From the NCBI GenBank assembly GCA_947173945.1, contig CAMWGV010000031.1, forward strand, positions 1 through 32,479: a DNA stretch of 32,479 nt, read 5' to 3'. The stretch comes from an uncultured Lachnospiraceae bacterium. Its GTDB lineage: Bacteria; Bacillota; Clostridia; Lachnospirales; Lachnospiraceae. Position numbers and translations under genes: made by a program. Under the pieces are notes generated by a model that was not told the DNA's origin, did not search any database, and saw only the letters and a list, made by a program, of their open reading frames with translations. Below are positions 3,894-31,862 of the stretch, piece by piece (the first letter of the stretch is position 1; each line of letters begins with the position of its first letter).

Positions 3894-5798
3894 TTATGCT
3901 GATAACAGCTTTTTGAATTCCTCATCACATACAGCCTTGGAGTAATACCAGCCCTGCATATAATGACAACCTACTGCTGCCAGCTTGTCTTTCATTTCTG
4001 CCGTTTCAACTCCCTCAGCTACTATAAGAAGCTCCAACTCATTCAGCATTTGTATCGTATACTTTAATGTAACTCCTGCCTTAAGGTCCTTAAAGGCATC
4101 CCATATAATATACTTATCCAGCTTAATAATTTTAAATGGCATATGATTTATGTAATCTATATTTGCATTTCCGGAACCATAATCGTCCAACGAGAAGTTT
4201 ATTCCATATTCTACAAGCTTTTCTATGTTTTTGTTTATAATGGACATATTTCCCATGGTTGCTGTTTCTGTTATTTCCATATTAATTTGCTGCGGTTTAA
4301 CATCATACTTTTCAAGAATGCTTTTTACCCTCTCAACAAAATCAAGCTGCATAAGCTGTACAGAGCTTATATTCACCTCAATATACTCTATTGAAGTTTC
4401 CATAATATCATAATCATGTATAAATTTGCATACCTTTTCAAGTATCATTTCACCCATACTTACTATAAGACCATTTTTCTCTGCAATCGGAATAAAGTCC
4501 TCAGGTGACACCCAGCCTAGTTCCTCATCATTCATCCTGACTAAGGCTTCTGCAGAATTGTATTTACCCTTCTTGATAGAATAAATAGGCTGATAATAAA
4601 CCATAAATTCGTCTCTGTCCATAGCAAGCCTTAACGCTTTTTCTATATCCTTCTCTCTCTTCAGCTTATCAAGCTCAAGGTTTTCAACCTTTGATACCAT
4701 ACCCTTTCTGGACTTTTTTGCCACTGCCATTGAATAGTCAATAACCTCTACAAGGCTTCCATAATCATCTGCATCCTTAGGACATGTTACACAACAGATG
4801 GAAGCAGACATCATGATACCTATTTCTGTACCTCCATACCAAGGGTGTCTGAATCTGTTAATGATACCATCAGTAATGTCATCAAGCTTCTGCCCCTTTT
4901 TATCAACAACAATACAAAACTGGTCAGAGCCAAATCTGAATACATATTTCGGTACTTCAAGCTGTGTCAGGTAATTTCCCACCGAAAGCAAAAGCTTATC
5001 TCCTACCCTTGCCCCATATGTCTTGTTTATAAACTTAAAATCATCCATGGCAACCATAATTACATCGAAAGGCTTTTTTTGCTCATAAAGATTGATTACA
5101 TACTTTCCAAGCATTTTTCTGTTAAAAAGCTGTGTCGTCTGATCCTTTACCGTATCAGGGTTATGAAGATAATGACAAAGCGTCAGAAGCAGAGTTGCAA
5201 TTGCACTATTTAGTACAGGTATCCCCAAAACAATCTGGGCAAAGCCTGCCACCAACACTACAAAAATATTTGCGATTATCGTAATGGATTTAAAAACTGA
5301 TATATCCGTTACATACTTTATCATATTGTAAATAGCCAAACCTATCATTGCAAGATCTACAAGAACAAGCAACAGCATGCCTTGATGTGCAACATATCTT
5401 TCATTTTCTATTGTGAACAGTATGTCTGTAAAATAATTTACGACAACAAGCATAAGCTCCATTGACATAACAACAATGAGAACCTGCTTTATACGGTTCA
5501 CTACCTTGTCCGTAAGTCTGGACAGAGAAAAAGAATACTTGGCAAAAAGAACTGCCAGGAAATGAATAATAAACGTCTGCGCCGAAACCAGATGATAGAC
5601 CATATCACTAGCAATTTGCCTCCGCAACAAATGTGTTACAATTATTTCCAACATAGTTGCAACAATTGCAGTGTTAACAAGCAGCCGGAAGGCTACATAG
5701 CTTTTTAAAGGTATTTTCTTTTCAATCACATACCATGCTGCAATCACAAGCATCATATAGGACGCAACATAGTCAAATGCGACATTCCAATCAGCCAT
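3894..5798 (-). CDS. Membrane GGDEF-EAL protein, probable c-di-GMP phosphodiesterase
   Basis: This 634-aa protein has about six to seven N-terminal transmembrane helices (to about residue 215), a GGDEF domain and an EAL domain. The GGDEF signature is degenerate (FGSDQF), so cyclase activity is unlikely. The EAL domain keeps its metal and catalytic residues: E in 'AEALVRM', N in 'VNISS', E in 'MEITET', the paired Asp in 'LDDYGSG', K in 'IIKLD', E in 'AEGVE' and Q in 'MQGWYYSKA'. It should therefore hydrolyse c-di-GMP, with the GGDEF domain perhaps binding GTP as an activator, as known for similar proteins. A longer TTG-started frame is open, but the ATG at 5798 has AGAGGAGA at proper spacing. 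It lies 24 bases after the GH25 gene, probably in one operon. Confidence 0.93.
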   Translation of the reverse strand: MADWNVAFDYVASYMMLVIAAWYVIEKKIPLKSYVAFRLLVNTAIVATMLEIIVTHLLRRQIASDMVYHLVSAQTFIIHFLAVLFAKYSFSLSRLTDKVVNRIKQVLIVVMSMELMLVVVNYFTDILFTIENERYVAHQGMLLLVLVDLAMIGLAIYNMIKYVTDISVFKSITIIANIFVVLVAGFAQIVLGIPVLNSAIATLLLTLCHYLHNPDTVKDQTTQLFNRKMLGKYVINLYEQKKPFDVIMVAMDDFKFINKTYGARVGDKLLLSVGNYLTQLEVPKYVFRFGSDQFCIVVDKKGQKLDDITDGIINRFRHPWYGGTEIGIMMSASICCVTCPKDADDYGSLVEVIDYSMAVAKKSRKGMVSKVENLELDKLKREKDIEKALRLAMDRDEFMVYYQPIYSIKKGKYNSAEALVRMNDEELGWVSPEDFIPIAEKNGLIVSMGEMILEKVCKFIHDYDIMETSIEYIEVNISSVQLMQLDFVERVKSILEKYDVKPQQINMEITETATMGNMSIINKNIEKLVEYGINFSLDDYGSGNANIDYINHMPFKIIKLDKYIIWDAFKDLKAGVTLKYTIQMLNELELLIVAEGVETAEMKDKLAAVGCHYMQGWYYSKAVCDEEFKKLLSA

Positions 5799-5822
5799 AT
5801 TATCTCCTCTTTTCAACTAAGG

Positions 5823-6776
5823 TTACTCAAACCAGACATTCATGTCAACATTACCACCTACACCATTGACATGTCCTTCATCAGTATATTGCCATCCTAT
5901 ATACTGATATGGCAAATCCGGCTGATTTGTATAATGTGCATACCATATCTTATAATCACCAAGTCTTGTCAAATCAAGACATTGTACAAGCCAATTTCTG
6001 TTTGTGTATACCATAGGGGTATACCCTGCTTCCTTGACTGTTTCACAAAAACCTACCACAACATCTGTTCTCGCTGTGATATCTAAATCATTTGTTCTTG
6101 CATCATCGGCATAAATAGCCTCTGTATCAATAGCTATCGGATATGAAATATTATACTTCCTTATAGCTTTAAGAACAAATTTTGCCTCCTCTACACCTTC
6201 CTCATAGCTTATTCCCTGTGTATAAAAATACACACCTACCTTTAGGCCTGCCTCAAGTGCCGACTCCACGTAGTTTTGAAACATCGAGTCCTCCACAAGC
6301 GCTCCGGAGCCGTATCCACGGTATCCAACCCGAACCATAGCTCCCTGTACTCCCGAAGCTTTTACCTGCTCCCAATCGACTTGTGGCTGAAATTCAGACA
6401 CATCAATAACTATGTATGACTGCCTGTTTCCTTCCTTGTCATGATAATACATCTCATCTCCTGAATCTATGTAAAAGCTTTCATTGTCAAAATCATTTCT
6501 TGGTATTTCCGTAACAATTTTGTAGAACAGACAATCTGGCGGAGTACCTACAATTATGTAACTAGCATCGATAAACTTCCAATAATTTTCATATATCATC
6601 TGCCCTTCCTGTCCCTGACTAAGCGACCAAGAATTCTCATCCACAAAAACAGGCTGTGGCTGTTCACGTTTCACGTTTATATTTATGCCGATTACTATAC
6701 CAATTGCAATCAAAATTGCCACTGCGGCCAAAACCAGCAAAACCTTTCGTATATCTATACTCATAAAATAATCCAT
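5823..6776 (-). CDS. Membrane-anchored GH25 lysozyme-family hydrolase
   Basis: This 317-aa protein has one N-terminal transmembrane helix (about 11-34) that anchors it with the enzyme domain outside. After a linker region of no known type (40-120), a GH25 muramidase domain fills residues 121-317. The expected acidic residues are present: D125 in 'VIDVSEFQ', and D217 and E219 in 'AIDTEA'. The barrel ends in 'YIGWQYTDEGHVNGV', usual for the family. GH25 enzymes cleave the N-acetylmuramic acid-GlcNAc bond of peptidoglycan. The start is not certain: codons 1 and 5 are both ATG with weak Shine-Dalgarno sites. A TATAAT box lies at 6807-6802, without a convincing -35. Pairing with a c-di-GMP phosphodiesterase suggests cell-surface remodelling, which is inference. 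Confidence 0.9.
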   Translation of the reverse strand: MDYFMSIDIRKVLLVLAAVAILIAIGIVIGININVKREQPQPVFVDENSWSLSQGQEGQMIYENYWKFIDASYIIVGTPPDCLFYKIVTEIPRNDFDNESFYIDSGDEMYYHDKEGNRQSYIVIDVSEFQPQVDWEQVKASGVQGAMVRVGYRGYGSGALVEDSMFQNYVESALEAGLKVGVYFYTQGISYEEGVEEAKFVLKAIRKYNISYPIAIDTEAIYADDARTNDLDITARTDVVVGFCETVKEAGYTPMVYTNRNWLVQCLDLTRLGDYKIWYAHYTNQPDLPYQYIGWQYTDEGHVNGVGGNVDMNVWFE

Positions 6777-23924: not shown

Positions 23925-24191
23925 ATGCCTGCATTATCTATGTTTTTTGGAATTATTGTACGAATGCAAAGTGAAAGAGGTGGAAAACATAATAAGCCAC
24001 ACATTCATGCTTTATATGGAAACGATGAAATTGTAGTAGGAATAGACGGTGAAGTTCTAGAAGGAAATTTCCCTAATAAACAACTAAAGCTTTTATTAGC
24101 ATGGATAGCAATTCACGAAGATGAGTTAAACGCAAACTGGAAATTATTATGTAATGGCGAAGGTTATTTCAAGATTGAGCCATTACGTTAA
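23925..24191 (+). CDS. DUF4160 protein
   Basis: This 88-aa protein has the DUF4160 pattern: 'MPALSMFFGIIVRMQ', 'KHNKPHIHALYG', 'GEVLEGNFPNKQLKL' and a C-terminal 'FKIEPLR'. The family is small, widespread and usually sits beside DUF2442, as here. Such pairs behave like toxin-antitoxin modules in genome context, but I know of no firm biochemical function. GCGGAGG precedes the ATG at good spacing. The partner starts 19 bases downstream. Confidence 0.9.
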   Translation: MPALSMFFGIIVRMQSERGGKHNKPHIHALYGNDEIVVGIDGEVLEGNFPNKQLKLLLAWIAIHEDELNANWKLLCNGEGYFKIEPLR

Positions 24192-24210
24192 ATATTGGAG
24201 GTGTTTTATT

Positions 24211-24453
24211 ATGTTAAGACCAACCGCAGTTCAAGTAGAAGCTATCTGCGCTTATCAGATATTAGTAGTATTTGATAATGGCGAAAAAAAGTGCTTTGAT
24301 GTCGAGCCATATATAAAAGGTGAATGGTATGGACAATTACGGTCTTTTGAATATTTCAAACGTGTTTCCACCGATGGATTTACAGTTGTATGGCCTGATG
24401 GACAAGATATATGTCCTGATGAATTATATAATCTGGGAAAATTAGTATCTTAA
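24211..24453 (+). CDS. DUF2442 protein
   Basis: This 80-aa partner of the DUF4160 gene shows the DUF2442 features 'VFDNGEKKCFDVEPYI', 'FEYFKRVSTDGFTVVWPDG' and 'DICPDELYNLG'. The ATG at 24211 has GGAGG 9 bases upstream; the longer open frame overlaps DUF4160 in another phase and is not used. It converges on the methyltransferase gene with a 42-base gap. A role in DNA binding or as the antitoxin half of a pair is possible, not shown. Confidence 0.9.
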   Translation: MLRPTAVQVEAICAYQILVVFDNGEKKCFDVEPYIKGEWYGQLRSFEYFKRVSTDGFTVVWPDGQDICPDELYNLGKLVS

Positions 24454-24495: not shown

Positions 24496-25095
24496 TTATT
24501 GCTTCGTAATAATCGCTACAGCACATGGCATTCTCCCCTCAACGATATAATACTGAACATTTTCGTACCCTGCATCTTCAAAAAACGTCCTATAGGAATT
24601 GATGTCAAATTGCCGCTTAAAATTTGCTCCTGCAAATTCAAGCAAACGTACTGCCTTTTTATTAACGCCATCAGACGCATTGATATATGTGGGAACAATT
24701 ATTTTACCACCTGTTTTACAGACTCTTTCCAATTCTTTTATTGCGGCATGCGGTTCTTCCAATAAATGGATTACATTTCCTGCTACTACCTTATCAAATC
24801 TGTTATCACGGCATTTCAACTGTGTCATGTCTGCACGTTTTATTTTTATGTTGTTATATCTCCGACAATGTTTTGATGTTTGCCGTAACATTCCTTCCGA
24901 AAAATCCGTTGCAATTAATTGTTTACATTTAGGTGCAATGTATTTGCTTATGGCACCTGTCCCACAGGCACACTCCAATACAATATCATTTTGTTCAATT
25001 TCCCCGGCTACTTTTTCACCAAGACCTCTATATACCTTACCATTGTATATTGTTTCAAAAAAATCATAAAATCCGGACACCTTATCCCAAAACAT
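24496..25095 (-). CDS. Class I SAM-dependent methyltransferase
   Basis: This 199-aa protein is of the UbiE/Methyltransf_11 type. Motif I is 'VLECACGTGAISKYIA', followed by 'LIATDFSEGML' (SAM ribose-binding acid) and 'FDKVVAGNVIHLL'. I start it at the ATG 25095 ('MFWDKVSGFYDFF', the common family start) because GGGAGGAA lies 8 bases before it; the upstream ATG at 25125 has a poor site. It is the last gene of the minus-strand series beginning with the ACGX peptide, 92 bases after DUF1848, so membership is likely but not certain. Substrate unknown: small molecule or peptide. Confidence 0.85.
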   Translation of the reverse strand: MFWDKVSGFYDFFETIYNGKVYRGLGEKVAGEIEQNDIVLECACGTGAISKYIAPKCKQLIATDFSEGMLRQTSKHCRRYNNIKIKRADMTQLKCRDNRFDKVVAGNVIHLLEEPHAAIKELERVCKTGGKIIVPTYINASDGVNKKAVRLLEFAGANFKRQFDINSYRTFFEDAGYENVQYYIVEGRMPCAVAIITKQ

Positions 25096-25187
25096 ACATA
25101 TTTCCTCCCACATTTTAGGTCTCATTGTTAATATTTTCCTTTAAATACTAATATTTTTTAAGGGAATAGTCAATGATTCGATTTTCT

Positions 25188-26123
25188 CTACAACAAATCA
25201 AAAAAATCTAATTGTTCATTTTTCCATGATTTTTGCTCAGCCTGCTTTATCACATCATGTTCAGATACTTCTCCAATCAGAAGCGGAGAGAACGCATTAT
25301 GCAGTTTCATGTTTTCCACAACCGTTTTCTTATCATAGTTTGCATAACAATATAAGCAACCATGCCCGCATGTGTTGTATGCTCCAATATCTGCTCCCAA
25401 CAGACAGGTGCACTCCTGACGTGCCAATTTCTTTGGTGGCACATTCAACCTAAAGCCTAATGACTTCTCCAGCACAGCCTTTGACATACAGCCTTCCGCA
25501 TCTACATTTTCCCGAATAAGATCTGCATTCTCACAGCATAAATGTATCTGCAACTTATTTTCTTTTGCAATTTCAGAGAAAACGGCAATTATTTTTTCCT
25601 GTTCCGTATTTGTAACACTGCGGATTCCACTGAAATTCCGCTTTGTTTTCTCATACAAATCAATAAAGCTTACCACGCACTGGTCTGTATATCCTGAAAG
25701 TGCTTTTGCCATTTGGCTAAACTGTTCTATATGATAATCAATCGAATATTTATCCGCAATAAAAATCGGATCATATCGCCAGCTTATCCGTTCCTTTCCA
25801 ACCAATTCAGAAAGTTTTTGAAAATATGTGATGACCCGTTCTTTCGGTGGTACATAAGGCTCAATCTCCTCCCCGTATGGAGTGATTGTCACAAACCAGA
25901 ACATATCAAATGCAGATAACTGAGAAAACCTGTCAAGCATAGGAAAAGGATTTTTGGTACAGAACACGATAGCATCTATCACCTCGGGATTTAACAGGTA
26001 TTTGGTTATCTGCGTCGGATAATAGGGATTGCGTGAAAGCACATAGCCCTCTTTGATACGATTATAAAACCAGTCACTATAATAGGCAGGTATATCCGTC
26101 CTGCTGCCTGTATTCAGTATCAT
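25188..26123 (-). CDS. DUF1848 protein with C-terminal CxxxCxxC motif
   Basis: This 311-aa protein starts in the typical DUF1848 way ('MILNTGSRTDIPAYYSDWF'), with 'FCTKNPFPML' and 'SWRYDPIFI' further on. Near the C-terminus, 'QECTCLLGADIGAYNTCGHG' continues into CLYCYANYD, giving C252, C256 and C259 in the CxxxCxxC spacing of radical SAM clusters, plus C238 and C240. That suggests an iron-sulfur enzyme with a permuted radical SAM-like layout. The ATG at 26123 is chosen by family N-terminus; an ATG at 26156 overlaps the sirtuin stop, and neither has a strong ribosome site, so translational coupling is likely. Function unknown. Confidence 0.85.
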   Translation of the reverse strand: MILNTGSRTDIPAYYSDWFYNRIKEGYVLSRNPYYPTQITKYLLNPEVIDAIVFCTKNPFPMLDRFSQLSAFDMFWFVTITPYGEEIEPYVPPKERVITYFQKLSELVGKERISWRYDPIFIADKYSIDYHIEQFSQMAKALSGYTDQCVVSFIDLYEKTKRNFSGIRSVTNTEQEKIIAVFSEIAKENKLQIHLCCENADLIRENVDAEGCMSKAVLEKSLGFRLNVPPKKLARQECTCLLGADIGAYNTCGHGCLYCYANYDKKTVVENMKLHNAFSPLLIGEVSEHDVIKQAEQKSWKNEQLDFFDLL

Positions 26124-26148
26124 TTTAAAACCATGCCTTTCTCTCAGA

Positions 26149-27081
26149 CTACACATCCTGAATCAAATGTATTACAGTATTTATATCGTCATTAATGCAA
26201 ATTGATTTATATTTGATTTCCTCCGGTGCGAAAGCCTCACCCATATTCAGACAGGCATAAGTTGCATTATTCCAATCACGTGTCATCTGCCAGAACGGAT
26301 ATTTGATGATACCCGGTGTATTATATCCCACACCCAGCTCTAAAAATAGTGTATTCGTATCTTTGTTCCGTCTTAAAAATGTTTCATATCGCTCGGCAGC
26401 TTCATACCACCCATCATCCTGCACAAAGGTATCATCTGCCCGAAGATTCATGTTCATAGGCTTTCCGCATTTCGGACAATGGGGTATTTGTTCATCAGGT
26501 ACAGACATTTTGGCGGTCACGGTATCCGGCAAATATATATTTCCATCTTCCCCAATTTGCCATCCCTGTGCCTTTACCATTTCACAGATTATGTTTTCAT
26601 TTTCGTAGGTTTCTTCATGGCATGGTTCACTGCATTGAAATAATCCATAGTCACCCTGAGTATAATATAATCTATTTTTATCAAATCCTGCTTTCTGGAA
26701 ACAATGGTCTACATTGGTTGTTATGACAAAGTAGTCCTTATCCTTTACAAGCTCATAAATCTTCTGATACAGTGGTTTAGGCGCATCCATATAGCGATTA
26801 ATATAGATATACCTGCTCCAGTATGCCCAATGCTCATTTAAGGTTTCGTATGGATAAAAGCCTCCCACATACATATCCTTGAAATGATATTTCTCCGCAA
26901 AATCCTTAAAATAGGTGTGAAAGCGTTCCCCACTGTAAGTAAATCCGGCTGCGGTAGAAAGTCCTGCACCTGCACCAATAATAACAGTTTCTGACTGTTC
27001 CAGCTTTTGACGGAGTGCCTGTATCTGGTTTGTATTATGAATTTCATCATTTGGTAGTGATTTTGGTCTTCTAAGTAACAT
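26149..27081 (-). CDS. Sirtuin (SirTM-like), catalytic His replaced by Gln
   Basis: This 310-aa Sir2-family NAD+-dependent protein has the Rossmann motif 'IIGAGAGLSTAAGF' (36-45 region), 'ITTNVDHCF' with N123, and a zinc site C150-x3-C154 / C202-x2-C205. Where canonical sirtuins have the catalytic His (HG), it has Gln (Q142, 'YYTQGDYGLF'). As I recall, this Gln, with the Asn, marks the macrodomain-linked class M sirtuins that ADP-ribosylate a lipoylated carrier protein; no macrodomain, GcvH-like or lipoate ligase gene is in this window. The ATG at 27081 follows AAGGAG at 9 bases, downstream of a nitroreductase gene that ends 25 bases earlier. ADP-ribosyltransferase activity is more likely than deacylation. 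Confidence 0.87.
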   Translation of the reverse strand: MLLRRPKSLPNDEIHNTNQIQALRQKLEQSETVIIGAGAGLSTAAGFTYSGERFHTYFKDFAEKYHFKDMYVGGFYPYETLNEHWAYWSRYIYINRYMDAPKPLYQKIYELVKDKDYFVITTNVDHCFQKAGFDKNRLYYTQGDYGLFQCSEPCHEETYENENIICEMVKAQGWQIGEDGNIYLPDTVTAKMSVPDEQIPHCPKCGKPMNMNLRADDTFVQDDGWYEAAERYETFLRRNKDTNTLFLELGVGYNTPGIIKYPFWQMTRDWNNATYACLNMGEAFAPEEIKYKSICINDDINTVIHLIQDV

Positions 27082-27106
27082 ATGCAAATTCTCCTTGTTT
27101 TTCATT

Positions 27107-27694
27107 TTACATTCTGATAATCCGTCCGTCAATTCGTGCTTTTCCTTTTGGTGCCTGTTTATCTTTCGGATAACCTAACAGAACATGAAGGGCAGCATAA
27201 TAATCGGTCCGGATATTCCATTTTTTCAAAATTTCCTGCCCGAACGGATCTGCAAAGGATTCCCATGCCGAACCAATATAACATCCACCCAGACCAATGG
27301 AATGTGCCGCTAGAAGCATATTTTCAGCAGCCGCACTTGCATCATAAGGAGCATATAAGAAATTTTTTGGCACAAATAAAGTAATGACTGTAGGCGCATC
27401 ATAAAAAGCATTGGTAATACTTGCGTCGTCAGCGATACTTGGCTGTTCCTTTGAAATATATACGGTGTCAGTTGACATTTTTACATTTGAATTATTCCGT
27501 TTTATTCTCCCTAACTTTTTGTTGGTTTCTTCATCCTGCGATACTACAAACAACACCCCCTGCCTTCCTCCGGCGCTTGGGGCGTACAACCCTGCATCTA
27601 ACACTGTCTGTAATTCTTCCTCTTGAATCTGCTTATCAAGAAAGCGTCGTATTGTTCTTCTTGTCATAATATTTTCTATAACTGCATTTGGCAT
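27107..27694 (-). CDS. Nitroreductase-family flavoprotein
   Basis: This 195-aa FMN-dependent oxidoreductase has the N-terminal phosphate-binding 'TRRTIRRFLDK', 'DAGLYAPSAGGRQ', 'AAENMLLAAHSIGLGGCYIG' and 'LHVLLGYPKDK' segments of the family. A long upstream frame extension is ignored because the ATG at 27694 has GGGAGGGG 7 bases before it. It starts 17 bases after the radical SAM gene and is followed by the sirtuin gene, all one operon. In a peptide-modification locus it could oxidise a residue or reduce a thioether/disulfide intermediate; alternatively it detoxifies quinones or nitro compounds, which would fit control by an HxlR-type regulator. Confidence 0.92.
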   Translation of the reverse strand: MPNAVIENIMTRRTIRRFLDKQIQEEELQTVLDAGLYAPSAGGRQGVLFVVSQDEETNKKLGRIKRNNSNVKMSTDTVYISKEQPSIADDASITNAFYDAPTVITLFVPKNFLYAPYDASAAAENMLLAAHSIGLGGCYIGSAWESFADPFGQEILKKWNIRTDYYAALHVLLGYPKDKQAPKGKARIDGRIIRM

Positions 27695-27711
27695 TACTAT
27701 ACCCCTCCCGT

Positions 27712-28749
27712 TTATTCTATTTCCTTCCAACACTGTGGGTCTGTTGCATAAAAGTCCCTGCTTGTTCCATATGCTACGGCAGGACATCCCCTACAAAAAC
27801 CCCTGAGCTCACATTTACTGCATTTTTCAAATTTTTCATAATCACGATAAATTTCTTCCTTTGTAATAAATATATCATAAAGTGCTTTCTCAAAAACATT
27901 CCCTACCTTGCTTTCAAATCTCCGGCAGGCATAAACATCTCCGTTTGGCAAAATTGTCATGTGGCAGATGCCACAATGACATCCATCGTAAACCATATCT
28001 TTTTTTGCATATTCAGGAATTTTAAAAAGTCCCTTTTCATAAAAATAAAGCGTCCACAAATGATCTTTCAAATTAAAGTAAGTTCCCACACCCTGAGCTT
28101 TATATTCCTCATATTTGTTCCACATCTTATCCAGGAAATCCCGGTAAATAAGGGGCTCGATTCCCGTATTCTTTTCCTCACTGGTAGGGCAGTATCTGCC
28201 AAAAGCAAAAATATCCACCTTGTGCTTTACAACCAAATCAACCACATCAGGCATTTCATCCACGTTTACTCCCGATACAGTAGACATAATTGCACACTTA
28301 ATACCTGCATTCCGAATAACTGATATTTTTTCCAAGGTACAATCAAAAGAACCGGGCTTCCTAAAATAATCATGCGTTTCTCTCATACCATCAATTGACA
28401 TCTGATATTTTTCACAGCCACATTCCTTCAATAACCGGCACACTTCATCGGTTAAATGAAATGGATTTCCCATTAAAGTGAACTTATAACCTTTTGATTT
28501 CATCAGATTCATTAAATCCCAAAAATTCGGGTGTAAAACAGGGTCCCCTCCCGTAATGTAAAAATAAGGGGTCCGGTTTAACTGTTCACACATATCTTCT
28601 ATATTTTTAATGACCATTTTCATATTGTCTAAGCTCATAGATAACAATTCACTACACTTTCCTTCTGAAAAAATGTAACAATGCTTACACCTTTGGTCAC
28701 AATAATCCGTAATATGCCATTGAAATGCAAAATAAGGTTTCATAAACAT
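27712..28749 (-). CDS. Radical SAM/SPASM peptide maturase
   Basis: This 345-aa protein has the radical SAM motif 'CDQRCKHC' (C17, C21, C24) and 'ITGGDP' as the SAM-binding GGE-type motif. A C-terminal SPASM region carries many cysteines for auxiliary clusters: C257, C259, C262, C275, C310, C313, C319, C322 and C340 ('CSKCELRGFCRGCP'). Such enzymes cross-link or epimerise ribosomal peptides. It lies 107 bases after the ACGX-repeat peptide gene. I recall an NCBI/TIGRFAM family for radical SAM/SPASM proteins of an 'ACGX system' that matches this pairing, but I could not check it. The ATG at 28749 has AAAGG at 6 bases. Likely product: thioether (Cys to alpha- or beta-carbon) cross-links, inferred. 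Confidence 0.92.
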   Translation of the reverse strand: MFMKPYFAFQWHITDYCDQRCKHCYIFSEGKCSELLSMSLDNMKMVIKNIEDMCEQLNRTPYFYITGGDPVLHPNFWDLMNLMKSKGYKFTLMGNPFHLTDEVCRLLKECGCEKYQMSIDGMRETHDYFRKPGSFDCTLEKISVIRNAGIKCAIMSTVSGVNVDEMPDVVDLVVKHKVDIFAFGRYCPTSEEKNTGIEPLIYRDFLDKMWNKYEEYKAQGVGTYFNLKDHLWTLYFYEKGLFKIPEYAKKDMVYDGCHCGICHMTILPNGDVYACRRFESKVGNVFEKALYDIFITKEEIYRDYEKFEKCSKCELRGFCRGCPAVAYGTSRDFYATDPQCWKEIE

Positions 28750-28779
28750 TCAATTCCTTTCAAATGTTAAGTAATAATC

Positions 28780-28823
28780 CATAGCCGGACATTCAATGAA
28801 AACTGCATGTGTGCCCGACTATG
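28780..28823 (-). other. Intercistronic hairpin between peptide and maturase genes
   Basis: On the minus strand CATAGTCGGGCA (28823-28812) pairs over 12 positions, two as G-U, with TGTCCGGCTATG (28791-28780). It lies between the precursor stop and the maturase start and has no strong T-run after it. It probably gives partial termination or 3' protection, so that the precursor is made in excess of the enzymes, as is common in peptide operons. Confidence 0.55.
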
Positions 28824-28855
28824 AATCAGTCTTTTCCCTTTGCTAAGTAAAATTT

Positions 28856-29017
28856 CTACTTATGGCCGGCACCGCAGGCACTTCCACATGCGCTCGGCTT
28901 TTCCTCAGGTTCTGCCGCACCACACGCACTTCCGCATGCACTTGGCTTTTCCTCAGGTTCTGCTGCACCACACGCACTTGTATTTCCTGCAAATTCTGCA
29001 ACATTTGATAATGCCAT
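28856..29017 (-). CDS. ACGX-repeat precursor peptide (putative RiPP)
   Basis: This 53-residue peptide has an 11-residue leader-like start (MALSNVAEFAG) and then five ACGX units with cysteines at 16, 28, 32, 44 and 48. It is built of two copies of the 16-residue repeat ACGAAEPEEKPSACGS and a final ACGAGHK. At DNA level the repeat is 48 bases with few changes, so it arose by recent duplication. GGAGG lies 8 bases before the ATG. The codon usage, the ribosome site and the adjacent radical SAM/SPASM gene argue that it is a real, enzyme-modified peptide. Cysteines spaced CGAAE and ACGSACG would allow Cys-to-Glu or Cys-to-Ala/Ser thioethers. No double-Gly leader cleavage site, protease or exporter is seen in the locus. 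Confidence 0.88.
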   Translation of the reverse strand: MALSNVAEFAGNTSACGAAEPEEKPSACGSACGAAEPEEKPSACGSACGAGHK

Positions 29018-29062
29018 ACTCTGTTCCTCCTATATACTTTTATTTTGTTTTTCAACAAGTTT

Positions 29063-29091
29063 ATTCTAGCAGGAACATATCACAGATTAAA
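29063..29091 (-). promoter_or_regulatory. Candidate promoter of the ACGX peptide operon
   Basis: Minus strand: extended -10 TGCTAGAAT (TAGAAT at 29068-29063) with a weak TTTAAT -35 (29091-29086) at 17 bases. A second possible -10, TATAAA (29108-29103), overlaps the operator palindrome. Which one is used cannot be decided here. Confidence 0.4.
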
Positions 29092-29106
29092 GTACGCACC
29101 TTTTTA

Positions 29107-29131
29107 TAACCTAGGTTACTTTTTTGTAACC
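29107..29131. promoter_or_regulatory. Candidate HxlR-type operator
   Basis: Two overlapping palindromes share a half-site: TAACCTAGGTTA (29107-29118) and GGTTAC-N6-GTAACC (29114-29131). They lie between the divergent peptide operon and the hxlR-type gene, 2 bases upstream of the latter's -35 box. HxlR-family regulators bind GTAC/GTAAC-like inverted repeats in such positions, so this is probably where the adjacent regulator acts on both directions. Confidence 0.65.
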
Positions 29132-29133
29132 AA

Positions 29134-29162
29134 TTGTATTTTGGTGAATGCTACAGTATAAT
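29134..29162 (+). promoter_or_regulatory. Promoter of the HxlR-type regulator
   Basis: -35 TTGTAT (29134-29139), 17-base spacer, consensus -10 TATAAT (29157-29162), about 38 bases before the start of the 29207 gene. The operator ends just before the -35. Confidence 0.7.
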
Positions 29163-29206
29163 CAGAGTGTAAGTATCAAAAATAAACTTTTGAAATGAGG
29201 TATCCC

Positions 29207-29533
29207 ATGAAAACTAAGGACGAATTATTACCGGAATGTCCTGTTGCTGTCACGGTATCGGTAATTGGAAGCAAATGGAAACTATTAATTATGAGAAATC
29301 TTCTTGTACGTCCGTGGAGATTTAATGAGCTCAAAAAAGATTTGGAGGGCATCAGTCAAAAAGTTCTGACAGACTCACTACGTGCCATGGAAGAGGATGG
29401 TCTTATTACCAGAACGGTATACCCTGAAGTTCCGCCCCGTGTGGAATATTCCTTAAGCGAGCTCGGAGAGTCCATGCGTCCAATTTTAGATGCCATGAAG
29501 CAATGGGGTATGGAATATAAAAGTACACTCTGA
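29207..29533 (+). CDS. HxlR-family winged-helix regulator
   Basis: This 108-aa MarR-like regulator has the family core 'VIGSKWKLLIMRNLL', 'RPWRFNELKKDLEGISQKVL' (recognition helix) and the wing 'ITRTVYPEVPPRVEYSLSELG'. A single N-terminal Cys (C11 in 'PECPV') occupies the place of the redox- or electrophile-sensing Cys of YodB/HypR-type members. The ATG at 29207 has GAGG at 6 bases; an ATG four codons upstream overlaps that site. It diverges from the ACGX peptide operon with a shared operator and converges on the feo operon terminator. Confidence 0.93.
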   Translation: MKTKDELLPECPVAVTVSVIGSKWKLLIMRNLLVRPWRFNELKKDLEGISQKVLTDSLRAMEEDGLITRTVYPEVPPRVEYSLSELGESMRPILDAMKQWGMEYKSTL

Positions 29534-29633: not shown

Positions 29634-29792
29634 TTAAGAATGCTTCGCTCCACTCTTGCAATGGTCTGACATGGTACATGAGCTGCACCCACAGCCACAG
29701 CCTGAGCTTCCCTTTGCCCAATTCTTAACAATGCTTCTCACACAGGAATATATAATTATGATTAATAATACAATCAGTATAGTATCTATCAA
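29634..29792 (-). CDS. FeoB-associated Cys-rich membrane protein
   Basis: This 52-aa protein starts with TTG right after the feoB stop codon, with GGAGG of the feoB end 10 bases upstream. One transmembrane helix (residues 3-17, 'DTILIVLLIIIIYSCV') is followed by a basic stretch and a Cys cluster 'GCGCGCSSC' plus C45. This is the layout of the FeoB-associated Cys-rich (FeoC-position) family. It likely sits in the membrane beside FeoB and may handle iron or protect the channel; its exact role is unknown. Confidence 0.85.
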   Translation of the reverse strand: MIDTILIVLLIIIIYSCVRSIVKNWAKGSSGCGCGCSSCTMSDHCKSGAKHS

Positions 29793-31862
29793 TTAAATCA
29801 ATCCTCCTACAAGCTTTACAATAAGTGCTACTATGTATGCTGTAACCATTTGTACAAGAACTGCACCACCGGTTGCTTTCCACGTTTTAAGCTCTCTCTT
29901 AAGGGCTCCAACTGCTGCAAAGCATGGCATACACAAGAGATTAAATACCATATATGCATAGGCAGCCGCCTTTGTAGATATATCCTTTCTCATGGTAGGC
30001 AAAGCATTTTCGTCTCCACCCTCAAAAAGGATTCCCTCGGCATATATATCTGCTGCCGCTTCACTGTCATATTCCCCATTTTCAAATCCAAGCTCTTCAA
30101 GCTCCTCAAGTGACATATCAGCAAAAAACTGTTCAAGGTATTCGTCTGTTACATCCTCCTCATATAGCTGTGCAAATGTAACAACTACATTTTCCTTTGC
30201 AATCCATCCTGTCACAACTCCCACTGCCGGTCTCCATTCTCCGAATCCAAGTGGTTTAAATACAGGTGCTACAACTCTTCCTGCTGATGCAAGGAAGCTA
30301 TCCTCCATATTTTCACACATTACGGAGTTATCCTCGTTCATCTCCCGGTTCTTTCCGTTAAAGGAGTCTGCATTGAAATTAGAAAGGAACCATATAAATA
30401 TTGTTGAGAGAAGAATAATTGTACCTGCTTTCTTTCCAAATCCCTTAACCTTTTCCCATCCATGTATGAGCACACTCTTTATTGTCGGAATCCTGTACTG
30501 CGGAAGCTCCATTATAAAATTTGATGCCTCAGATTTGTAAACAAACTTGTTGAGCAGCAGGCTGACTACAATTGCTGCCACCAATGCCAGAATGTAAAGT
30601 GAATATGTCACAAGTATCTGATTATCATTTGCAAAAATAGTTGATGCAAACATTGCAAAAATAGGAAGCTTTGCACCACAAGGCATAAATGTTGTTATTG
30701 TTGCAGTTATTTTTCTGTCCTTTTCTTTTTCAAGTGTCCTGGTCGCCATAATAGCAGGTACACCACATCCGTAACCCATAAGAAGCGGAATAAACGAACG
30801 TCCCGAAAGTCCGAATTTTCTGAAAATCCTATCCATGATAAATGCAACTCTTGCCATATATCCGCTATCCTCAAGCACAGACATAAGCAGATAAAGCACA
30901 AGTACAAGGGGCATAAATCCAAGCACAGCTCCGATACCCTCAAGTATACCATCAACGATAAGTGCCTGCAACCACGGTGATGCACCGGAAATTGCTTCTG
31001 CAATTCCATCTACAATCCATGACCATACAGTTCCCACAGCACCTTCAAGCCACTTTCCCGGACTGTTTATTCCAAGCCATAAGAAATTTTCACTAAATGT
31101 ACATGCAAACATTGCATACATGATAATCAGGAAAATTGGAATTCCCCAAAAACGGTTTGTGAGAATTTTGTCAATCTTATCTGATTTCGTTGCCTCAGTC
31201 TTTGATGCTTTTTTCTTTTTTACAGTTTTGGATACAATGTCACCGATTGCCTTGTACCTGATATCTGCAACGGCAACCTCGGCTTCTTCCTTATCCTCCT
31301 CACTTTCAGCATCTGCCTCAAGCTTTTTGATTTCCTCAAATATAGGCAGCTGCTTCGGAGTGCTTTTCGATACAGCAAGCTTTTCCACAGCCCTAAGCAG
31401 CTCGTCAACACCCTTCCCCGATCTTGCCACCATGGGAATTATGGTAATGCCCAATTCCTTTTCAAGCCCGGATACATCAATTTTAGTACCCGCTTCCGTA
31501 ACCTCATCCATCATGTTAAGTGCCAGCACCATTGGCACGTTTGTCTCCATTATTTGCAGGGTAAGATATAAGTTTCTCTCTATAGAAGTTGCATCTACAA
31601 TATTTACAACAACATCCGGTTTTTCTCCATTCTTCCCTGTAATAGTCTCCATTGCAACTATCTCCTCAGCAGAATATGGTGAGAGTGAATATGTACCCGG
31701 AAGATCAAGTATTCTGATATCCTTATTCTTTTTACATGTACCCTCCTTTTTATCCACCGTAACTCCCGGCCAGTTTCCAACATGTTGTTTGGAGCCTGTG
31801 AGGTCATTAAATAATGTCGTTTTTCCGCAGTTTGGATTACCTGCTAATGCTACCTTTATCAC
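29793..31862 (-). CDS. feoB: Ferrous iron transport protein B
   Basis: This 689-aa membrane importer of Fe2+ has a cytoplasmic G domain with G1 'GNPNCGKTT' (8-16), 'VGNWPGVTVDKKEG', G3 'DLPGTYSL' and G4 'NMMD', then a helical spacer and about eight transmembrane helices with the Gate motifs 'GYGCGVPAIMATR' and 'CGAKLPIFAMF'. It starts with GTG (31862), chosen because AAGGAGG lies 6 bases upstream. It follows two feoA genes and precedes the Cys-rich partner, so it is part of a four-gene operon. Iron-dependent repression through the upstream paired boxes is likely. Confidence 0.97.
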   Translation of the reverse strand: MIKVALAGNPNCGKTTLFNDLTGSKQHVGNWPGVTVDKKEGTCKKNKDIRILDLPGTYSLSPYSAEEIVAMETITGKNGEKPDVVVNIVDATSIERNLYLTLQIMETNVPMVLALNMMDEVTEAGTKIDVSGLEKELGITIIPMVARSGKGVDELLRAVEKLAVSKSTPKQLPIFEEIKKLEADAESEEDKEEAEVAVADIRYKAIGDIVSKTVKKKKASKTEATKSDKIDKILTNRFWGIPIFLIIMYAMFACTFSENFLWLGINSPGKWLEGAVGTVWSWIVDGIAEAISGASPWLQALIVDGILEGIGAVLGFMPLVLVLYLLMSVLEDSGYMARVAFIMDRIFRKFGLSGRSFIPLLMGYGCGVPAIMATRTLEKEKDRKITATITTFMPCGAKLPIFAMFASTIFANDNQILVTYSLYILALVAAIVVSLLLNKFVYKSEASNFIMELPQYRIPTIKSVLIHGWEKVKGFGKKAGTIILLSTIFIWFLSNFNADSFNGKNREMNEDNSVMCENMEDSFLASAGRVVAPVFKPLGFGEWRPAVGVVTGWIAKENVVVTFAQLYEEDVTDEYLEQFFADMSLEELEELGFENGEYDSEAAADIYAEGILFEGGDENALPTMRKDISTKAAAYAYMVFNLLCMPCFAAVGALKRELKTWKATGGAVLVQMVTAYIVALIVKLVGGLI

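Follow-up and report, generated by a model that had tools for sequence, protein, structure and literature searches.

A widely conserved ACGX-repeat peptide and radical SAM system in a Lachnospiraceae bacterium, its recurrent redox and class M sirtuin neighbours, and a likely thiol-stress setting

The window analysed here, a stretch of 32,479 nucleotides (positions 1 to 32,479 of contig CAMWGV010000031.1, our contig C31, in assembly GCA_947173945.1), comes from the 2.84 Mb genome of an uncultured Lachnospiraceae bacterium and contains an ACGX locus, in which a cysteine-repeat peptide is followed on the minus strand by genes for a radical S-adenosylmethionine (SAM)/SPASM enzyme, a nitroreductase, a sirtuin, a DUF1848 protein and a methyltransferase, with a divergent HxlR regulator on the plus strand. 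The ACGX-repeat precursor peptide has 53 residues (28856-29017, minus strand; TIGR04341 43.3 bits, cut-off 28), and 106 bp separate its gene from that of its maturase (27712-28749, minus strand; TIGR04340 577.6 bits, cut-off 400), which belongs to the radical SAM/SPASM enzymes by matches to PF04055 and PF13186 above cut-off and by its retained motif cysteines. These are followed by a nitroreductase-family flavoenzyme (27107-27694, minus strand; PF00881 83.5 bits), a class M sirtuin (SirTM) predicted to be an NAD-dependent protein ADP-ribosyltransferase (26149-27081, minus strand; best PDB match 5a3a, E=1.4e-64), a DUF1848 protein that is probably a circularly permuted radical SAM enzyme (25188-26123, minus strand; PF08902 333 bits, full-length) and, as the final gene of the run and probably a passenger, a class I SAM-dependent methyltransferase (24496-25098, minus strand; PF08241 78.4 bits). 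The starts of the sirtuin (27081), DUF1848 (26123) and methyltransferase (25098) genes were chosen from the sequence, beside plausible ribosome sites. On the other side lies an HxlR/DUF24 transcriptional regulator with a single cysteine, C15 (29195-29533, plus strand; PF01638 112.5 bits), and the gap between it and the peptide gene holds operator-like sites (29090-29131), namely GTGCGTACTT at 29090-29099 on the minus strand and the inverted repeat GGTTACTTTTTTGTAACC at 29114-29131. All of these genes had been named at about these coordinates in a first-pass annotation, which also named an 'ACGX system'; the name is right, since the adjacent peptide and maturase pass the curated cut-offs of TIGR04341 (target_ACGX) and TIGR04340 (rSAM_ACGX). 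Those two entries name the peptide and the radical SAM enzyme only, and the sirtuin, macrodomain, HxlR regulator, redox enzymes, operator and fusion are tabulated here. In our literature search we found no paper on the ACGX system, TIGR04341 or TIGR04340, and, among the papers listed, none by title on a combination of radical SAM enzymes with sirtuins, ADP-ribosylation and ribosomally synthesized and post-translationally modified peptides (RiPPs).

The locus represents a genuine RiPP-type system that is widely conserved, and by family definition its peptide belongs to those modified by a radical SAM enzyme, as had been proposed. A maturase search of genome contigs gave 48 loci; with 20 family loci picked from the best maturase matches and the window these made 69, of which 68 were unique after L092 was dropped as a duplicate of L032. 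By title, the 48 loci come from Lachnospiraceae, Oscillospiraceae, Desulfosporosinus, Selenomonas, Treponema, Elusimicrobia and a Prolixibacteraceae bacterium, among others; cultured carriers of ACGX loci include [Clostridium] fimetarium DSM 9179 (L020) and Desulfosporosinus fructosivorans (L028). An ACG-repeat peptide lies upstream of the maturase in 66 of the 68 loci, that of L030 being divergent and Cys-rich; by the rule used, none was found at L031 or at L048, and the latter has a short Cys-containing open reading frame. The window peptide consists of a short leader, MALSNVAEFAG, and five ACG motifs with PEEK-type spacers. Across the 66 peptides, which with the chosen starts are mostly 41-95 residues long and have 3-11 cysteines each, 362 of the 397 cysteines stand in ACG and 19 in SCG, and there are 150 CX3C pairs. 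When whole genomes were considered, rSAM_ACGX scored above cut-off in 36 of 299 genomes of the family, and 31 of these 36 ACGX genomes have TIGR04341 matches; every match listed lies on the rSAM_ACGX contig, and none of the matches listed in the 31 genomes is an ACGX tail elsewhere.

The neighbours of the peptide and maturase are recurrent and largely of redox type. Among the 68 loci, a nitroreductase cluster occurs in 44, SirTM in 41, a divergent HxlR gene in 40 (with HxlR otherwise placed in five more), a PNPOx-ferredoxin protein in 25, a macrodomain in 20 (all 20 with SirTM), a zinc-type alcohol dehydrogenase (ADH)/quinone-reductase-like protein in 11, DUF1848 in 10 and a flavin reductase cluster in two. 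In 63 of the 68 loci the same strand carries a nitroreductase, an ADH, a PNPOx-ferredoxin protein or a flavin reductase, or more than one of these, which supports a role for the peptide alongside redox enzymes. The counts for the 53 loci with 4 kb of sequence downstream and 1.5 kb upstream are SirTM 33, divergent HxlR 35 and nitroreductase 32, and nine more ACGX loci outside the 68 (L182-L190) have SirTM in five, HxlR in eight and DUF1848 in one. Exporters are irregular, an ABC ATPase being present in 1/68 and a MATE protein in 3/68 loci (same strand, -1.5 to +5 kb), and among the clusters inspected, which were mostly judged by eye or unannotated, none was recognised as a peptidase. The first-pass annotation saw no exporter at the window locus, and the scarcity in the 68 loci fits, without proving, an intracellular product. 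Six loci (L006, L007, L009, L011, L032 and L036) have an AAA_14/DUF4143 ATPase gene downstream of the ACGX genes in the same orientation.

Two loci place the repeats on an enzyme. At L032 (about 5480-6240, upstream of the maturase), a PF01613 flavin reductase ends in a tail made up of a leader-like LAGW and ACG repeats. The same parts are found upstream of the maturase of L042, where a break in the frame separates the flavin reductase from the repeats. The repeats are thereby linked to a flavin enzyme.

The maturase itself is well conserved in its cluster-binding positions: the radical SAM motif CX3CX2C (C17, C21 and C24) is kept in 60 of 61 aligned sequences, and the cysteines of the SPASM region in 53 to 61 of the 61. 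After TIGR04340, the best-scoring characterised family is SbtM (TIGR04082), at 183.5 bits against a curated cut-off of 350, with the next family at 134.5 bits; SbtM has no match above cut-off in 299 genomes of the phylum. SbtM is described as removing four hydrogens from a Cys substrate to give a thiooxazole (PMC11002830). By sequence, the solved relatives of the ACGX maturase include RiPP maturases such as SkfB (6efn) and the 'radical SAM' entries 5wgg and 5v1q. We tentatively suggest, from the SbtM likeness, that the likeliest single product would be a 5-thiooxazole, with a loss of four hydrogens per Cys, and hold even this to be rather improbable. A second radical SAM protein (PF04055), which we read as spore-photoproduct-lyase-like, stands beside the ACGX genes at L017, L019 and L042.

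The sirtuin of the window can be assigned to class M: its best match is 5a3a, which we take to be the SirTM of Streptococcus pyogenes, a glutamine replaces the catalytic histidine, and the Asn, Asp and Arg residues are present. In the 311-residue reading these are N124, D126, Q143 and R215, kept in 38-40 of the 40 aligned sirtuins of ACGX loci; in the alignment to 5a3a they correspond by spacing to the SirTM active-site residues Asn118, Asp120, Gln137 and Arg192 (PMC4518038). The glutamine lies in a QGDYG motif and is invariant in the 40, so the 'Gln-type' label given earlier was correct, and QG is found by pattern in 91 of the 98 sirtuins of ACGX and other loci.

A tabulation of neighbours had been named in advance as the check on whether these genes keep company beyond chance, and for the sirtuin they do. 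At least 21 of the 36 ACGX genomes have a SirTM no more than 6 kb away from rSAM_ACGX on its contig (at least 20 of 35 without the host genome), and in at least 19 it is downstream on the same strand; the binomial P is ~1e-37 for an assumed chance rate of 0.6% per genome, with relatedness ignored. A SirTM match occurs anywhere in 32 of the 36 ACGX genomes vs 114 of the 263 others (Fisher p=1.5e-7, shared ancestry uncorrected), where the 263 include four genomes (G098, G128, G171 and G258) with sub-cut-off rSAM_ACGX pieces and SirTM close by, and where sirtuin matches as weak as E=1e-20 are included irrespective of class. On a tree of 96 SirTMs, from which two of the 98 sirtuins were omitted as too short, the ACGX label needs 17 changes (15-17 in bootstraps, which had not settled; shuffles 32), and at least seven are forced by well-supported branches; four rows, L138 and L162 (broken or cut rSAM_ACGX pieces) and L091 and L184 (SirTM near ACGX on the opposite strand), were labelled 'no ACGX'. 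The SirTM-ACGX linkage has therefore been gained or lost repeatedly. The window SirTM falls within a supported clade of 15 rows that are all ACGX-linked; an ACGX-specific clade of SirTMs as a whole was rejected, the labels being intermixed on the tree. We read this as a repeated functional association rather than an obligate pair.

For comparison, 49 SirTM loci without ACGX were chosen (within L131-L181, mostly top-ranked matches, with L138 and L162 left out). A macrodomain is present in 39 of them, HxlR in 16, a PNPOx-ferredoxin protein in 10 and an ABC ATPase-like cluster in eight. The host genome contributes one such locus, L150 (C72:4000-11891), with a second SirTM, a macrodomain and a PNPOx-ferredoxin protein.

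The regulator and its operator-like sites recur at many of the loci. The single Cys C15 of the HxlR protein, which represents the conserved N-terminal cysteine of HxlR/DUF24 regulators, is kept in all 41 aligned members of its cluster (48 before a length filter). The operator test covered the 35 of 68 loci, many of them related, that have a peptide and a divergent HxlR gene within 1.5 kb. The operator proposed by the first-pass annotation recurs, with GTGCGTACTT in 28 of the 35 HxlR-peptide gaps (shuffle mean 0.005) and GTTAC-N6-GTRAC in 22 (shuffle mean 0), the motifs having been picked after the gaps were viewed and the controls being simple letter shuffles. A combined long pattern was found in 0/35 gaps, and other TTAC/GTAA spacings gave little. 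A regulon-wide operator is not supported: in the host genome a pattern around GTGCGTACTT, with up to two mismatches, occurs here and at one weaker site, which is no better than the two given by a reversed control. In Bacillus subtilis, the HxlR-family regulators HypR, YodB and CatR are reported to sense HOCl, quinones and diamide through an N-terminal Cys, and their regulons to include YodC, a nitroreductase, as well as flavin enzymes (PMC6943732). The ACGX loci resemble these regulons in having an HxlR/DUF24 protein with an N-terminal Cys, here predicted to be sensory, and a nitroreductase nearby, and differ from them in that the adjacent target is a peptide and maturase operon. By this analogy, the ACGX operon is probably controlled by a thiol sensor that releases it.

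The two remaining genes of the run have a looser connection to the system. DUF1848 is an occasional ACGX partner (10/68 loci). It has CX3CX2C near the C-terminus in all 33 homologues read, and a cysteine cluster is noted for PF08902 in Pfam. Its AlphaFold2 model has a predicted local distance difference test score of 91.6, the first 41 rows of its VIA-align list are radical SAM enzymes, and its C-terminal tail can be aligned to the N-terminal portion of a radical SAM protein; in the comparison with that protein, swapping the order lengthened the alignment from 88 to 216 columns and did not raise the score (38.3 to 35.7), and hhalign against the rSAM_ACGX profile gave no match in either order. 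From the modelled fold, DUF1848 is a probable circularly permuted radical SAM enzyme, with the barrel first and CX3CX2C last; our literature search returned no paper on it. The methyltransferase was considered as a part of the system and rejected, a same-strand relative within -1.5 to +5 kb being found in one other of the 68 loci. Adjoining the HxlR gene (29634-31862) are a FeoB-like open reading frame, named by reading and by its neighbour, and a PF12669 FeoB-associated Cys-rich membrane protein. FeoB was likewise rejected as an ACGX partner: when 49 loci were blasted, one match only was found beyond the host genome, 27% identical and at L042, and because this match stands alone the link is taken as chance. 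At 23925-24453 there is a DUF4160/DUF2442 pair, the first of which resembles, below cut-off, the toxin DhiT of a type II toxin-antitoxin family.

Known systems offer two points of comparison. The extended SirTM operon of Staphylococcus and Streptococcus is described as comprising GcvH-L, LplA2, Zn-macro, SirTM, OYE and LLM, in which SirTMs ADP-ribosylate lipoyl-GcvH-L and macrodomains reverse the modification (PMC4518038). A 2024 study gives GcvH-L as the sole known SirTM substrate, calls the targets of other SirTM/Zn-macro systems unknown, and reports that Zn-macrodomains alone are known to hydrolyse S-linked ADP-ribosyl-cysteine (PMC11490716). The ACGX loci share with the extended operon the SirTM catalytic residues, flavin-type oxidoreductases, a redox setting, a candidate sulfur-bearing carrier with its own maturase and, in 20 of the 68 loci, a macrodomain that we read as Zn-type from its Cys/His loop. 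Unlike it, they have an HxlR gene beside them, and a radical-SAM-modified Cys peptide would take the role of carrier; among the matches listed, none to GCV_H (PF01597) lies on an rSAM_ACGX contig in the 36 genomes (21 listed matches), and LplA2 was not searched for. PF01597 has no match in the host genome, and matches above 100 bits occur in 3/36 ACGX genomes. The second comparison is with thiooxazole RiPPs, the products of SbtM and the captophorins. Captophorins made by MNIO enzymes carry 5-thiooxazole on Cys, formed during stress, and generally bind Cu (PMC12668002). The likenesses are a small peptide, modified cysteines (here predicted), a stress-response setting in the case of captophorins, and SbtM as the nearest characterised radical SAM enzyme by score. 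Repeated KCG motifs are a feature of captophorins. Unlike captophorins, the window locus has no MNIO (DUF692) among its seven genes by Pfam, and unlike the ACGX peptides the SbtM precursors are predicted selenopeptides.

Our favoured reading, in which we place about even confidence, is that an intracellular Cys-repeat peptide modified by a radical SAM enzyme works with flavin and NAD(P)H enzymes in a response to thiol (electrophile or disulfide) stress; the thiol-stress setting as such is likely. In this model, oxidation or alkylation of the thiol of the single-Cys HxlR repressor would release the divergent promoter, as its family and the operator suggest, and the radical SAM/SPASM enzyme would then modify the Cys residues of the ACG motifs. 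The multi-sulfur peptide would remain intracellular and act as a buffer or carrier (metal, redox or electrophile), with the nitroreductase, the ADH or the PNPOx-ferredoxin protein as its presumed partners. Finally, at loci that have it, SirTM, with or without a macrodomain, might reversibly ADP-ribosylate the peptide or a partner and so switch it off, by analogy with lipoyl-GcvH-L, a step that we consider unlikely. A more specific version is slightly more doubtful again: the ACGX sulfur groups, thiooxazole thiols or cysteines, would be ADP-ribosylated by SirTM and freed by Zn-macrodomains, and the RiPP would replace lipoyl-GcvH-L.

The favoured reading draws on the recurring gene set, the repeated SirTM linkage, the catalytic motifs, the operator-like sites, the low frequency of GcvH in ACGX genomes and the ACG tails of flavin reductase. 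Several observations weigh against it. Five of the 68 loci are without any of the redox partners counted above, and TIGR04341 has no match at E<=0.001 in five of the 36 ACGX genomes (G015, G067, G109, G155 and G169), two of which, G067 and G155, have a stop codon within the maturase. The likeness to SbtM is weak, another SPASM protein of the host genome scoring 148 bits with the SbtM model. The window's SirTM is matched in 146 of the 299 genomes, mostly away from ACGX, and 15 of the 36 ACGX genomes show no nearby SirTM among the matches listed, at least three of them at contig ends. The window locus is without a macrodomain, and the one match in its genome adjoins the second SirTM on C72. In the 49 SirTM loci without ACGX, no carrier was recognised among the 14 commonest clusters; the presence of a macrodomain there in the absence of a recognised carrier means that SirTM must have other substrates. 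Weaker GCV_H matches also exist, in 19/36 ACGX genomes at E<=0.001 and in 12/36 above the Pfam cut-off; nine of the 12 score 22-27 bits and cover only part of the model, and the weak matches are probably biotinyl-type domains. The scarcity of GcvH may, moreover, be family-wide, because the search covered ACGX genomes only. Thus, the proposal of the first-pass annotation that the additional enzymes form one pathway or redox response stands in part: the redox-type setting and the non-random neighbours hold, the methyltransferase falls away, DUF1848 is occasional, and SirTM occurs mostly away from ACGX.

We give a substantial, if minority, probability to an arrangement in which two modules share only their regulator, with the ACGX peptide and maturase on one side and SirTM, nitroreductase and PNPOx protein on the other, redox co-regulated and acting on unrelated targets. 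SirTM also clusters with HxlR and PNPOx-ferredoxin proteins where ACGX is absent, the ACGX labels are intermixed on the SirTM tree, and those 15 ACGX genomes show no SirTM nearby; such an arrangement, however, leaves unexplained both the frequent recurrence of the SirTM linkage and the ACG tail on a flavin reductase. Sequestration of a soft metal by the modified ACG repeats, in the manner of captophorins (bufferins, fontiphorin) and with the redox genes answering metal stress, is in our estimate unlikely. It would suit the cysteine content of the peptides, with their 150 CX3C pairs, and the report that captophorin thiooxazoles form in stress and generally bind Cu (PMC12668002), but no metal exporter or regulator was recognised among the recurrent clusters, most of which are unannotated, the genes that do recur encode flavin and NAD enzymes, SirTM and a single-Cys HxlR protein, and the FeoB beside the window locus does not recur in the 49 loci. 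A secreted thioether peptide, a ranthipeptide- or sactipeptide-like bacteriocin or signal with Cys linked to other residues, is improbable, for although the solved relatives of the maturase include SkfB and ranthipeptides too have repeated cysteines, exporters are irregular, no fixed acceptor is evident for the 3 to 11 cysteines of each peptide, and in two loci the repeats are joined to a flavin reductase (in L042 with the frame broken).

If the ADP-ribosylation of ACGX sulfur groups were true, the system would be a second switch that combines a sulfur carrier with ADP-ribosylation, and the peptide would be the first substrate for SirTMs beyond the extended operon. ACGX loci thus offer a concrete, small candidate substrate of SirTM that could be prepared in vitro, which bears on the published question of what such sirtuins modify. 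The analysis also indicates the chemistry to seek, through mass and absorbance at 305 nm, and singles out DUF1848 as a probable permuted radical SAM enzyme. For this uncharacterised RiPP family, the results together point to stress responses, and not antibiosis, as the likely setting.

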